Shown here piece after piece: positions 12,780 to 32,554 of a stretch of DNA of 64,000 bases. The DNA is taken from the NCBI GenBank assembly GCA_938045805.1, contig CALIBL010000053.1, forward strand, positions 1 through 64,000, written 5' to 3'. Position 1 is the first letter of the stretch. Each line of letters opens with the position of its first letter. This DNA comes from an uncultured Rubripirellula sp. GTDB taxonomy: Bacteria; Planctomycetota; Planctomycetia; Pirellulales; Pirellulaceae. Position numbers and translations under genes: made by a program. The notes beneath the pieces were generated by a model that ran no database searches, had not been told where the DNA came from, and was given only the letters and a program-made list of their open reading frames with translations.

Positions 12780-12923
12780 CGGTGCTAATTCTTTAATAAG
12801 AAGCACTAGTCAAACCTCTTGCGAACTCAAACCTCGCTATTAAATATCACGGCAAAGAGATAGAGTGAGAGTATTCTTGCATGCCTTGCACATGCGACAC
12901 TGTCTTGCCAACAAGTTTTGCAC

Positions 12924-13481
12924 ATGAAACGCCACACCTCTCTCCTACTCCTCTCATCGTATTTTGCAGTGCTCCTCGGTTGTGGCCTTAGCTCCAATGG
13001 GCCCTCCTCCGCATATGGAGGCCGCGGTTCTCTGCAGATCGGTGACCCTGCCCCAGCCCTTTCGATTGGAGACTGGTTCCAGGGCGACGCGGTCGAGAAA
13101 ATTGAGTCTGGAAGGGTCTACGTCATTGAGTTTTGGGCCACATGGTGCGGACCGTGCTTGATGAATATGCCTCACATGTCTGACTTGCAGGAACGGTATA
13201 AAAATGAGGTTACCTTCATCGGTGTAACGGATGAGTCGGCTGAAAAAGTTAAAGCATTTTTGGCCACTGAATCCACCTCCGGAGCACCATGGTCCTCAGA
13301 GATCAAATATCGACTGGGAACTGATCTGAACGAAGCGATGTACATCAATTACATGGCTGCAGCCAATCAAATGGGCATCCCAACCGCCTTCATCATCGGC
13401 AAAGGCGGAAACATCGATTGGATTGGACACCCCGCAGACCTCGATGCCCCTCTCGCCGAGGCAGTTCAAACTGGCAAGTAG
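12924..13481 (+). CDS. TlpA/ResA-like thioredoxin lipoprotein
   Basis: A 185-aa thioredoxin-fold protein, probably a membrane-anchored thiol-disulfide oxidoreductase acting outside the cytoplasm. The N-terminus is a lipoprotein signal with lipobox LLGC (Cys20). The active site FWATWCGPC carries the redox pair Cys75 and Cys78. The cis-Pro loop is GIPTAFIIGKGGNIDWIGHP. Relatives act in cytochrome-c maturation or in reducing periplasmic disulfides, which fits a cell with many exported CxxCH proteins, but the partner is not known. I use the ATG at 12924; the frame opens at a TTG six bases earlier. Confidence 0.88.
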   Translation: MKRHTSLLLLSSYFAVLLGCGLSSNGPSSAYGGRGSLQIGDPAPALSIGDWFQGDAVEKIESGRVYVIEFWATWCGPCLMNMPHMSDLQERYKNEVTFIGVTDESAEKVKAFLATESTSGAPWSSEIKYRLGTDLNEAMYINYMAAANQMGIPTAFIIGKGGNIDWIGHPADLDAPLAEAVQTGK

Positions 13482-13716
13482 GATTGCATTGTTTGAGCGG
13501 ATCTGGATGCACATTCCGATTTGCCATTTGCGTGATTTCATCTGCTTTTGTCTAATTTGTCCGTGCAAGTGACAAAGACGTGGTGTTTGTCTCCGGGATC
13601 ATTCCACCAACGCCACCGAGCAATCCAGCGGTGAAGGGTCCGCCCATCTTTCGGTGAGGAGGACGCACCCATACATATTTGGCAAGACACAGAAACTGAC
13701 ATCGGCGAAACACGCT

Positions 13717-24194: not shown

Positions 24195-25220
24195 CTAAGG
24201 CTTAAGAATTGGTGTATCGAAGCCTTGGATGTCACCGGGCCTTGCATCGGTAATCGAGGGTTGGAAGCTGAAGGTCGTCGGATTGTATCCTCCGATAAAT
24301 GAAACGTCAGAATCAGCGTCGATCGCATCCTCAAGGCCCATGCACCACAAAGTAGCGTTGACGATCAGGCGGCGAACTCCCTCGCTGAGAATATCCTCCG
24401 AAGCGCCCTGCGTACTGCAGAACACTCGTCCTTCGGGGCCACCACGGTAGCGATACGTTCGCACCCACGCAGCGGGCTGAGGCGGCTTATCAGCCACCGG
24501 CGCGGAGCCAACCTCCATGCCTTCCAAGACTTGATTGGTTGCAAGGATCGTTGAATTGGGCATCGGTCGGGCCGAGTAAGCACCGGCCATCGCATGCATC
24601 TCGCCCACACCTCGCAGAACCGGGTGATCCTGATTTTCGGGAACAGGATGCATCGCGGTTGCAAACTGATGGTTACGACCATAATGACCCGCTCCAAGCT
24701 TGGGATTCCAAGTTTCCCCTAGAACCTGACGCCCAAATCCACCTACAAAGTCTTCCGAATTGTGGTTGAAGTTGAGGAAGGCATATTCACCTTTGATACC
24801 GTTAAATGCGTGCGTCGTTGTCCGCAGGCCGAGCACCGGTCCGCCACGTTTAAGGTACGATTCAAATTTTGCCAGCCACTGGTCGCTGGGGTTGATAAAC
24901 CGCATGAACAGAAAAAGCATGTCAGCGTCATCGATCACTTCGATACCCGGTATCAGACTCGAACCGGGTTTGATTACGCCATCCTCGGTCTGCCCAAAAA
25001 GTACTGTGCATTTGAAACCGTAACGTTTTGCCAGAATCCTAGCGATCGCTGGGCATGTCTCCTCACCTCGATATTCGTGATCCGATGCAATAAAGAGAAT
25101 GTGCTTACCCTTACCAACACCTTCCCCGCCTTCGTAAACCACATGCTCCGCAGCAGAAGCCGCTTTCGCAAAGCCGCAGCAGAACACACCAACCATTAAC
25201 AGGGCCATAGAACGAGACAT
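24195..25220 (-). CDS. Secreted ThuA-domain protein
   Basis: A 341-aa protein of the ThuA (trehalose-utilisation, glutamine-amidotransferase-like fold) family, common in planctomycete sugar-degradation regions. I place the start at the ATG at 25220, giving a clean signal peptide (SMALLMVGVFCCGFAKAASA); the longer frame to 25343 adds an unlikely 41 residues. Family features are HILFIASDHEYRGEE, the central RGGPVLGLRTTTHAFNG, and RVFCSTQGASEDILSEGVRR near the end. ThuA proteins lack the amidotransferase nucleophile and their reaction is not settled. It is convergent with the WD40 gene and transcribed alone. Confidence 0.85.
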   Translation of the reverse strand: MSRSMALLMVGVFCCGFAKAASAAEHVVYEGGEGVGKGKHILFIASDHEYRGEETCPAIARILAKRYGFKCTVLFGQTEDGVIKPGSSLIPGIEVIDDADMLFLFMRFINPSDQWLAKFESYLKRGGPVLGLRTTTHAFNGIKGEYAFLNFNHNSEDFVGGFGRQVLGETWNPKLGAGHYGRNHQFATAMHPVPENQDHPVLRGVGEMHAMAGAYSARPMPNSTILATNQVLEGMEVGSAPVADKPPQPAAWVRTYRYRGGPEGRVFCSTQGASEDILSEGVRRLIVNATLWCMGLEDAIDADSDVSFIGGYNPTTFSFQPSITDARPGDIQGFDTPILKP

Positions 25221-25411
25221 ACTTACTCCATGAAGAACAAACACAAAGGTTGACCTGCCGACAATCTTTTTCAACAAGCAAAAATCAATGCAAGAGCATA
25301 CACCTGCGTACAACGAAGATGTTTCCGCGATCGCAAAAACCACCCTAAAGAGGCAGAAAAGGTCAGTCTAAGACACCTGAATTGGGGGCGATGCGATCTA
25401 GATCATCCTAT

Positions 25412-25440
25412 TTGACACATTATTTTCAGATTTCTAGAAA
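25412..25440 (+). promoter_or_regulatory. Sigma-70-type promoter in front of the candidate RNA
   Basis: A perfect -35 hexamer TTGACA (25412-25417) is followed, after exactly 17 bases, by the -10-like TAGAAA (25435-25440, four of six matches). Transcription would begin near 25447, about 23 bases before the long inverted repeat. No coding frame follows, which supports an RNA gene. Confidence 0.5.
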
Positions 25441-25446
25441 TGAATG

Positions 25447-25617
25447 CAAATGTGTTTCGCTTATCTCTGAAAGGCCTACCGCGCCGAATGGGGCAGGTGG
25501 CTTCCGCTTGCATTGATAACTCCGAGTCGGGGGGTACGGTGGCGTGGCGGGGAGGAGAGGTCCCGCCAACTTCACCAGCTTGAGAGAGAGGAGTATCCGC
25601 GGTAGGCCTTTTATTTA
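25447..25617 (+). ncRNA. Candidate structured non-coding RNA (about 150-170 nt)
   Basis: A perfect 14-bp inverted repeat closes this element: AAAGGCCTACCGCG at 25470-25483 pairs with 25598-25611, directly followed by a T-rich tail (CCTTTTATTT) like an intrinsic terminator. Inside I can fold three more helices. A hairpin pairs GCAGGTGG (25493-25500) with CCGCTTGC (25504-25511). A stem pairs GAT-ACTCC (25515-25523, one bulged A) with GGAGTATC (25590-25597), stacked against the closing helix. An apical GGCGGG/CCCGCC hairpin (25546-25551 with 25562-25567) is reached through GGTG/CACC (25538-25541 with 25573-25576). The interior is G-rich and non-coding. A sigma-70-type promoter lies upstream. It does not match 4.5S/SRP RNA, tmRNA or RNase P as I remember them. 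A 6S-type RNA, another regulatory RNA or a cis-acting leader of the porin are alternatives. Confidence 0.6.
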
Positions 25618-25988
25618 GCCATACCGCGACTCTGCTGCGTCCGGGCAGGCTCGGCTACAAAACCGTCTTCAGCCCTTTGATACACCGTCTAGCAGACACA
25701 GTGACAAGGACATGCACAGCAATCTAAAGTCCTTGCTGCGCTGATTCAGTACCGCTGAGAACCCATTATCCGTTTTGGTATTCTCAGCCGATTCTCTACG
25801 ACGAAGACTTTCCCGAATTCGTCCGCTTTTCGCGAAAAAGTCGACCCCACTCAAGTTCCAAGACAGAACTTCTCACGCTCTGCCATTGAGTTTGACGATC
25901 TTTCCAATTAGTGGCGCGGATCTACACGCGCCAACAGTCTGTTTCATGTGGCCCGTAAAGAGCGCTGAACTGCTTTCCAGAGATTCAT
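25618..25988 (+). other. Leader region upstream of the porin gene
   Basis: No supported gene. A hairpin is visible: GCTGAGAA (25754-25761) pairs with TTCTCAGC (25781-25788) across a 19-base loop, about 200 bases before the porin start. It could be part of a structured 5' leader. AGAGA just before the ATG at 25989 is a weak ribosome-binding site. Confidence 0.35.
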
Positions 25989-27323
25989 ATGCCCCACCTC
26001 AACAAAACGATAGCATTTCATCGCTTCGCACTGACACTCCTGTTGAGCATTCTCCCGCTATCGCTCCAAGCACAAGCGACAGATCAATGCGATCACATCA
26101 ACGACGAAGCCTGTGACGCATTACTCAGCGCTGAGCTAAATAATGTAAGCAATAAAGACTGGTTCAACGCTTTACGTCTTCCGAGGTTTTCTTTGTTGGA
26201 CGATCTAGCGGAAAAGGGAATTCTTTTCGAGGGGAACCTGACCAGTTTTTATCAAGGTAACGTTGCCGGTGGAGCACAAAACAAATTCCAGTTCTCTGGC
26301 CACGGGGACTATGCGGCTAACATGAACCTGGAAAAACTTGGTTTTGGTAGAGGTCAGTTTTTGAAGATTCGCGCCGAGCATCGTTTTGGTGATCCAATTA
26401 CTCAAGCCTCGGGAGCTCTACTTCCACCGAACATTTCACCCGAAACGCCAGTCCGGAACTCAGACGAACTCTACATCACCAACTTCCTGTTCATTCAAGC
26501 GCTCTCAGAGAACTTTGCCCTTTACTTCGGTAAGGTTGACTCACTGGGTGAGATGTCTGGATCTTTAACAAGTGGACGAGGACTCAATCAGTTCTCAAAC
26601 CTCGTTCTTGTTAGTAATCCGATTGGAATGCGAAGTATCGCCTATTCCACACTCGGTGCTGGTTTTTCAGTGATGCAGGATGGCGAGAAAATCTTTAACT
26701 TCTTGGCACTCAACGCACATGACACGGTTGAATCCACGGGACTGAGTGAACTGTACGCCAAGGGTGTCGCTCTGATCCCTGAGGTAACCCTGCCAACCCG
26801 ATTCGGTGGCAAACGCGGCAAGCACTCATTCATGGGGATCTGGAGTACTAGGGAGTTTGCAGAGCTGGCTCAGTCGCCCCTTTTCTTATTCCCCAGTGTG
26901 CCGATCCAAAAACGCGAAGGAACATGGGTTTTGAGTTACGAGGCAGAGCAATTCCTCGCCACTAGCGATTCATCAGATCGTATTGGATGGGGAATCTTTG
27001 GACGCGCTGCGATAGCAGATCAGAGGACCAATCCGATCCGCTACCTCTTTACCCTCGGAGTTGCCGGGAATAACCTCGCTCGAGGTCGAGAACAGGATCG
27101 TTTTGGGGTCGGCTACTTCTATTACGGCGTCAGCCATGATCTACGTCCCGCGTTTACCAACCTACTGGGCGGAATACAAAATGGGCAAGGTGTTGAGCTG
27201 TTCTACAACTTCTCCCTCAATAAGCAGACAGCATTAACCTTTGATGCGCAGATCCTACGTTCCCCATTAAAGAAGTACGATACCGCGTGCCTGATCGGTA
27301 CTCGGTTAAACTTCTCTTTCTAA
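25989..27323 (+). CDS. OprB-like carbohydrate-selective porin
   Basis: A 444-aa outer-membrane beta-barrel protein. A signal peptide (FALTLLLSILPLSLQAQA) is followed by a barrel rich in alternating aromatic/hydrophobic strands that ends on phenylalanine (LNFSF), the usual barrel-assembly signal. NLTSFYQGNVAGG, YFGKVDS, and the late GVELFYNFSLNKQTALTFDA resemble OprB-family sugar porins. It would admit sugars or oligosaccharides across the outer membrane, consistent with neighbouring sulfatases and esterases. It is preceded by a 370-base leader and the candidate RNA. Family assignment is good; substrate is unknown. Confidence 0.78.
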   Translation: MPHLNKTIAFHRFALTLLLSILPLSLQAQATDQCDHINDEACDALLSAELNNVSNKDWFNALRLPRFSLLDDLAEKGILFEGNLTSFYQGNVAGGAQNKFQFSGHGDYAANMNLEKLGFGRGQFLKIRAEHRFGDPITQASGALLPPNISPETPVRNSDELYITNFLFIQALSENFALYFGKVDSLGEMSGSLTSGRGLNQFSNLVLVSNPIGMRSIAYSTLGAGFSVMQDGEKIFNFLALNAHDTVESTGLSELYAKGVALIPEVTLPTRFGGKRGKHSFMGIWSTREFAELAQSPLFLFPSVPIQKREGTWVLSYEAEQFLATSDSSDRIGWGIFGRAAIADQRTNPIRYLFTLGVAGNNLARGREQDRFGVGYFYYGVSHDLRPAFTNLLGGIQNGQGVELFYNFSLNKQTALTFDAQILRSPLKKYDTACLIGTRLNFSF

Positions 27324-31720: not shown

Positions 31721-31891
31721 TCTGGACCTCTCCACTGGTTTACTAATCAAATCGTACATCGCCAGACTCCGTCGAGCCTCACGGCTGGTATAAGACCAGT
31801 TTCATGAGCATTACCATCTAGCAATCTTCGCATAACCTACCATGTTGCGCTGCGGTCTTTGAAACGCCGCGTTAATTTCTAACGAAACGGT

Positions 31892-32479
31892 TCATTTGTC
31901 CCACGTCGATCGAATCAAAGCGACCTTTCGCCTCACCGATTCTTCCACACAGCCTAAACGTGAGGCAATTTCTTTATTCGTGTAGCCAGCTAATTTCCAA
32001 ATGGCGACTTTCTTCAGATCGTCCCGAAGAGCCGCAAGGGACTCTCCCACGGTCAGATCGAATTGCTCAAGGAACTCAGGATTTGGATCAGGTACGTCAT
32101 TGAAGGCACCCTCGCTATCAACCCCAAACGCAGAATGCCCACGAACCTTTCCCCCACCACGTTTCTCTCGGTTCTGATAACGGCGTTGGTCAATCAATTT
32201 CTGGTCGGCAATGAACATCAACATGTGCCATAAACCATCTCGATTATCTAGCCGATCCAGCCTCCCTTCATCTAAAGCTCGAAAGACCTCCGCAAAAGCC
32301 ACGCTAGCAAGATCCTCTTCATCGGCGGCCCTTCGTTCACCGCCATGAAGTCGCTTTCGAATCGAGAAAACGAGACGCTGGTAATAACGATTCCACAATT
32401 CTTGTCGACTCTGTTCACTCCCGAGTTTTGCTCCATCGATCCACTGCGTCACCGACTGTGCAGCGTCGGAATCTTCCAT
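31892..32479 (-). CDS. ECF-type RNA polymerase sigma factor
   Basis: A 195-aa sigma-70 family protein of the planctomycete ECF type. Region 2 is seen in WNRYYQRLVFSIRKRL and EEDLASVAFAEVFRAL. Region 4 has a helix-turn-helix at AIWKLAGYTNKEIASRLG, then CVEESVRRKVALIRSTW. There is no anti-sigma gene beside it. Instead it is divergent, with 75 bases between, from a membrane Ser/Thr kinase, a pairing seen in planctomycetes where the kinase is thought to control the sigma factor. The target genes are unknown; the shared intergenic palindrome is a candidate site of autoregulation. Confidence 0.88.
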   Translation of the reverse strand: MEDSDAAQSVTQWIDGAKLGSEQSRQELWNRYYQRLVFSIRKRLHGGERRAADEEDLASVAFAEVFRALDEGRLDRLDNRDGLWHMLMFIADQKLIDQRRYQNREKRGGGKVRGHSAFGVDSEGAFNDVPDPNPEFLEQFDLTVGESLAALRDDLKKVAIWKLAGYTNKEIASRLGCVEESVRRKVALIRSTWDK

Positions 32480-32512
32480 GTGTTGCCTCCCGCCACTGGT
32501 ACAACCTATTAG

Positions 32513-32552
32513 GCCGAGCCGACAAGACCTCGGCTCCCCCCGTTAGTATAAT
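32513..32552. promoter_or_regulatory. Palindrome and perfect TATAAT between sigma and kinase genes
   Basis: GCCGAG (32513-32518) and CTCGGC (32529-32534) form an inverted repeat with a 10-base spacer. A perfect TATAAT lies at 32547-32552, only two bases before the ATG at 32555. If this is a -10 box, transcription would begin at or after that ATG. That would mean a leaderless transcript or use of the GTG at 32594, which has AAGGGGA upstream. Confidence 0.4.
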
Positions 32553-32554
32553 CG

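Follow-up and report, generated by a model that had tools for sequence, protein, structure and literature searches.

Introduction

Few of the papers on small or noncoding RNAs in the open literature that we searched are about planctomycetes by title. For 6S RNA, one source cites its absence from P. staleyi and R. baltica, and states that no homologue was found in Thermogutta terrifontis (PMC5673643). Here, we analyzed a 64-kb stretch of Rubripirellula DNA (hereafter the window), in which an earlier note, made from the letters alone, had described a promoter-driven, highly structured RNA. Among described classes, orphan bacterial small RNAs (sRNAs) with an intrinsic terminator resemble this element in combining a promoter-like site, a structured body and a terminator-like intergenic end; they differ from it in that their terminator is a short 3' hairpin, whereas the terminator-like stem of the element closes the whole RNA. 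6S RNA (RF00013) belongs to the same length class and has a closed outer stem and a promoter-like site as well, but no 6S model matches the element, which has no central bubble in its predicted single-sequence fold and, by eye, none of the conserved sequence blocks of Pirellulales 6S RNAs. Finally, REP-like or other long-stem palindromic repeats of Pirellulaceae (L087-L089) consist of a long stem closing a short element, as is the case here, but the element is unrepeated in its own genome as far as searched, has another sequence, and encloses a longer interior. Our best reading, held tentatively and at somewhat less than even probability, is that of a lineage-specific, stand-alone, self-terminated orphan sRNA gene. 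Transcription of the element would make it an example, within Planctomycetes, of an sRNA confined to one genus or species.

A perfect 14-bp stem closes the element

The arms AAAGGCCTACCGCG (25470-25483) and CGCGGTAGGCCTTT (25598-25611), found by repeat search and recovered in the fold, form a perfect 14-bp stem on the + strand, exactly where the earlier note had placed it, with 114 nt between the arms and 142 nt in the element as a whole. In 292,697 bp of the same genome, this stem is the only perfect separated-arm repeat of at least 14 bp (span at most 260). Within the window it is also the sole such repeat of at least 12 bp (span up to 260), and elsewhere in the genome, over a further 228,697 bp, there are two separated-arm repeats of 12 bp and none of 14 bp. 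The structure is real as sequence, and it probably exceeds chance expectation.

We considered it distinctly unlikely that this is a chance or decaying structure without function: shuffling the entire 64-kb window did yield a repeat this long in 3 of 40 trials, conservation was not detected and the interior is marginal (both below), but shuffling the intergenic region alone yielded one in only 1 of 3000, and the stem coincides with a T-tail, a promoter-like site and a divergent gene context. As a side observation, an 11-bp inverted repeat, ATCAATGCAAG/CTTGCATTGAT (25284-25294 and 25507-25517), joins the region upstream of thuA with the element, and may be due to chance.

Predicted fold and its stability

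In the minimum free energy (MFE) fold, the closing stem lengthens to 16 pairs (25468-25613). Of the three or more further helices that had been proposed inside it, an 8-bp hairpin, GCAGGTGG-CTT-CCGCTTGC (25493-25511, + strand), and a long irregular arm (25515-25597, + strand) are predicted, while a third, a 2-bp hairpin at 25484-25492, is negligible. The base of the long arm (25515-25523/25590-25597) adjoins the closing stem on its 3' side, in agreement with the second stem described there before, and its apical loop (25553-25560) is purine-rich.

The 152-nt piece 25466-25617, whose exact bounds were picked after the fact, folds at -75.4 kcal/mol (z -4.8), with none of 1000 dinucleotide shuffles equally stable. 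A longer piece of 174 nt gave z -3.2 on the + strand (0/200 shuffles) and z -2.5 on the minus strand (3/200), while the 114-nt interior without the closing stem is marginal on the + strand (z -1.9, 37/1000 shuffles) and gave z -1.0 on the minus strand (155/1000). The stability excess of the 152-nt piece comes mostly from the closing stem, and the + strand of the element is more stably folded than the - strand. G+C content is also raised in the element, to 0.63, compared with 0.39-0.41 just upstream and 0.55 and 0.49 downstream.

We then placed these values against the surroundings. A fixed grid over the window, with 12 shuffles per window and positions that did not meet the boundaries of the element, reached z <= -3 in 16 of 1704 strand-windows, with none at the element among the best 25 listed. 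Among 620 intergenic 150-nt strand-windows from the 292,697 bp, the element has the lowest energy and is about fourth-best by locus in z, a ranking that is noisy at 30 shuffles each; three other intergenic loci (on L092, L090 and L094) have an equal or better z.

Promoter-like site, tail and flanking genes

Upstream of the closing stem, at a distance of 29 nt and on the + strand, there is indeed the promoter-like site TTGACA (25412-25417)/17/TAGAAA (25435-25440) that had been noted. It matches 10 of 12 consensus positions, although its -10 hexamer is weak and lacks the conserved last T; our promoter tool did not list the site because it demands this T. The -10 lies within a perfect 12-bp palindrome, ATTTCTAGAAAT (25430-25441). 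A site as good arose in 50 of 2000 shuffles (2.5%) of the AT-rich 90 nt upstream, and nine sites of this kind (at least 10/12 matches, with at least 4 per hexamer) occur on both strands of the 292,697 bp, five of them intergenic. A second perfect 12-bp palindrome, TTTTCGCGAAAA (25827-25838), lies in the same intergenic region, and the two palindromes are possible operators.

The 3' arm is followed by TATTTAG, with TTT within the stem before it, so that the tail, described earlier as T-rich, is moderately so. Stem and tail together form a possible intrinsic terminator, which our terminator scan could not list because it limits loops to 3-8 nt. A terminator with arms 114 nt apart is unusual. With ends placed by the promoter-like site and the tail, the putative transcript would span 25447-25617 on the + strand (~165-171 nt). 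As to the claim that nothing here codes for protein, no ORF of at least 50 aa overlaps the element, and an 83-codon stop-to-stop frame that spans it on the minus strand has no start giving 50 aa.

The element lies between a divergent ThuA-like gene (24195-25223, minus strand; PF06283 at 30.4 bits, which falls short of the 33.4 required by Pfam) and an OprB-type porin gene (25989-27323, + strand; PF04966), which opens a run that also holds a sulfatase and an esterase. Since these flanking genes diverge, neither needs a + strand terminator at the element, judging from gene order. That this is the largest intergenic region could not be established; when ORFs of at least 200 aa alone are counted, there are longer gaps at 12780-13653 and 31760-32554.

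With the porin gene next downstream on the same strand and the sulfatase and esterase genes behind it, the element might instead work as an attenuator, or another structured 5' leader, for the oprB operon; depending on a signal, transcription from the same promoter would end at the stem or run on into oprB. Attenuators usually have this arrangement, with a terminator-like element in front of a gene. However, 377 nt separate the stem from the start of oprB, and a separate promoter-like site (9/12) lies between them at 25701, where 0.6 such sites are expected by chance in the region. No antiterminator came to light, short of a systematic search, and neither blastn nor the covariance model described below saw a copy ahead of other genes in the genomes searched. 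We consider such a leader rather unlikely.

Search for relatives

We searched for relatives in the element's own genome and in overlapping genome sets from its genus (22 genomes) and family (241) and from samples of its order (396) and phylum (392), and found no convincing second member in any of them. Using blastn at E<=0.001, only 1 of 40 relatives matched, namely the genome itself; at E<=1, 9 of the 22 genus genomes matched, self included, with a best non-self E of 0.027 over 24 nt. For the order and phylum sets, with 2 candidates scored per genome, blastn at E<=0.01 matched 4/396 and 6/392 genomes including self, over 27-44 query positions. All non-self matches are short (19-44 query positions, best E 0.0014). 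Phages and plasmids gave no blastn match, and two pattern scans of viral contigs found none.

We also searched with a covariance model (R1), for which the single sequence was entered twice. At E<=10, this model picked out nothing but the element itself across the 22 genus genomes, and it found nothing in the 228,697 bp of own-genome stretches. In the 241 family genomes, searched with stricter filters and at most 12 candidates scored in each listed genome, it found the element and three matches, in genomes G123 (E 5e-4), G125 (0.026) and G233 (0.08). All three (L087-L089) are long-stem palindromes, and the G233 locus contains three such palindromes. They have the long stem in common with the element, and G123 is also moderately similar on the 5' side, but the stems of G123 and G125 differ from that of the element in sequence. 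Because an E of 5e-4 per genome corresponds to ~0.12 over 241 genomes, we took these matches to be palindromic repeats rather than homologues, although the G123 match may be a distant relative. Applied to the 22 short-match loci, R1 gave six weak matches (best E 0.012), and the three shown are stem-only or single hairpins.

These palindromes bear on a further possibility, that the element is a palindrome at the DNA level, left over from a REP-like or miniature inverted-repeat element, and has no RNA function. Its long perfect terminal repeats and its fold as DNA (z -3.3) are in keeping with this, as are the palindromic best matches in the family. Such elements would be expected in several copies, and the lack of further copies in the own genome, by blastn (E<=1) and R1, beyond one 24-nt blastn match (E 0.45), argues against a REP or MITE. 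Furthermore, no direct repeat flanks the stem directly, so that a target-site duplication is not evident by eye, and the G123 and G125 stems are unlike that of the element. We regard a DNA-level element as unlikely.

The earlier note had named a lack of conservation in relatives as an outcome that would speak against its reading, and by sequence comparison the element indeed appears unconserved as far as this is testable. This absence is not decisive, because both of the genomes that are closest by a flanking gene have contigs that break off before reaching the element. In G007, where OprB is 85% identical, the contigs end 6 nt ahead of oprB and within thuA; in G004, where ThuA is 80% identical, the contig extends for ~190 nt beyond the start of thuA and does not reach the element, and this stretch shows no alignment with the window (score 17, against a mean of 22 for shuffled sequence). 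Besides G004, nine congeners have a ThuA at least 76% identical. By inspection of stop-to-stop frames, seven of them carry a different long same-strand frame of 350-417 codons upstream of ThuA; of the remaining two, one locus ends at a contig end (L053, G006) and the other has shorter frames (L048, G020).

Comparison with known RNA classes

In line with the earlier note, the element matched no Rfam family: there was no + strand match in the whole window at the gathering threshold, nor in 25380-25700 at E<=10, RF00013 included. On the minus strand, a CUCC-rich motif gave weak matches to the sRNAs CcsR1 (RF02791, E 6.3) and ar14 (RF02344, E 8.3), whose scores of 10.7 and 11.1 are at chance level against cut-offs of 65.3 and 58.8.

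The suggestion of a 6S-type RNA found no support. RF00013 matched 9 of 80 relatives (at most 28 candidates scored per genome), 2 of them above the cut-off, and none of the 22 Rubripirellula genomes (control 4/14). We built a covariance model (R2) from the nine Pirellulales 6S sequences, which contain conserved blocks and have a mean column identity of 69%. R2 found nothing in the 22 genus genomes, with 106 candidates scored per genome and no positive control. With filters off, R2 reached at most 4 bits in 25300-25800, in short or heavily gapped matches with E of at least 0.036 for 501 bases; within the element it scored 3.5 bits on the minus strand and 1.5 bits on the plus strand. By these tests, 6S RNA was rejected. 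A diverged 6S RNA inhibiting RNA polymerase would fit the 6S-like size, closing stem and promoter, as well as the fact that no 6S RNA was found elsewhere in the 22 congeners; against it, besides the scores, none of the conserved blocks is seen in the element by eye, and the MFE fold of the single sequence predicts, rather than a central bubble, a one-sided bulge that has a 5' branch and 0 nt on its 3' side. We hold this to be very improbable.

The layout of an outer stem, a short hairpin and a long arm adjoining the 3' arm also resembles the msr-msd of a retron ncRNA with its a1/a2 arms. However, RVT_1 (PF00078) was not found in the own genome, which is 94% complete (0/1; control 3/14), and no reverse transcriptase was found in the 15 neighboring ORFs scanned; since the genome thus lacks a detected reverse transcriptase domain, a retron is scarcely credible. 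A CsrA-titrating sRNA was considered as well, and the element shows no excess of GGA (3, against 3.8 expected in shuffles).

A candidate stand-alone sRNA gene

The anatomy best fits the promoter-driven structured RNA of the earlier note, ended by a terminator, and no Rfam family matches the element, while neither of the identities proposed there, a 6S-type RNA or a new class, is supported, the latter for want of a convincing second member in the sets searched. Our preference for an sRNA gene is based on the uniqueness of the 14-bp repeat in 292,697 bp together with the z of the exact piece, on the promoter-like site upstream, which is one of nine of its kind in that sample, five of them intergenic, and on the diverging flanks, raised G+C content and better folding of the + strand. 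Against it stand the lack of a convincing relative, the other long frame upstream of ThuA in 7/9 congeners, the marginal interior, the three intergenic loci with equal or better z, the poor -10, the frequency of equally good sites in shuffles, the unusual arm distance, the absence of a GGA excess, and the pairing results described below.

Transcription, the transcript ends and the mode of action are inferred. Transcription of such a gene would start near 25447, from the TTGACA/TAGAAA site, and stop near 25617, at the closing stem and a U-rich tail. The product, ~165-171 nt long, would be closed and very stable, and would carry a 5' tail of ~20 nt, mostly unpaired, as well as the purine-rich apical loop. 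Its most likely use would be regulation in trans through this tail or the purine loop, by mRNA pairing or protein binding. We think it improbable, to about the same degree as a chance structure, that this single-copy element (as searched in the own genome) is a new structured RNA unlike any Rfam family, confined to this Rubripirellula lineage, with its own terminator stem and a putative role as regulator or protein scaffold.

For possible targets, we ranked the pairing of three segments of the element over 37 gene starts in the window, a crude test using chosen starts of the 41 ORFs of at least 200 aa, a few of them shifted or left out. OprB and ThuA ranked 23 and 29 for the 5' tail, 27 and 20 for the apical hairpin, and 9 and 10 for the first loop, so neither neighbor is favored, and for the 5' tail neither is among the best partners. 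Energies computed for full-length duplexes carry no meaning for such pairing. With no relative and no target, the element opens no long-standing question by itself.

Other structured loci and 6S RNA candidates beside larE

Two further intergenic regions of the same genome stood out. One (L092:19590-19900, on contig C2) is strongly structured, reaching z -7.6 in 150-nt windows of the minus strand and z -3.3 for the 311-nt + strand fold. A TTGACC-16-TAGAAT site precedes it, and immediately downstream comes a frame that begins MTTKTVFTTGEAAKICKVSQQTIIRCFDNG and that we take to be helix-turn-helix-like. The other (L090:3300-3560, contig C53, 67300-67560) has z -4.05 for 261 nt. Neither has an Rfam match at the gathering threshold.

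The 6S RNA candidates of nine Pirellulales genomes (L076-L084; RF00013, 2/9 above cut-off), with conserved blocks in common, may matter more than the orphan element. No paper in the open literature that we searched contains both '6S RNA' and 'larE' as whole words. In seven of the nine loci, a LarE-like gene lies downstream on the same strand, and NCBIfam confirmed the identity of LarE for the 2 proteins scanned.
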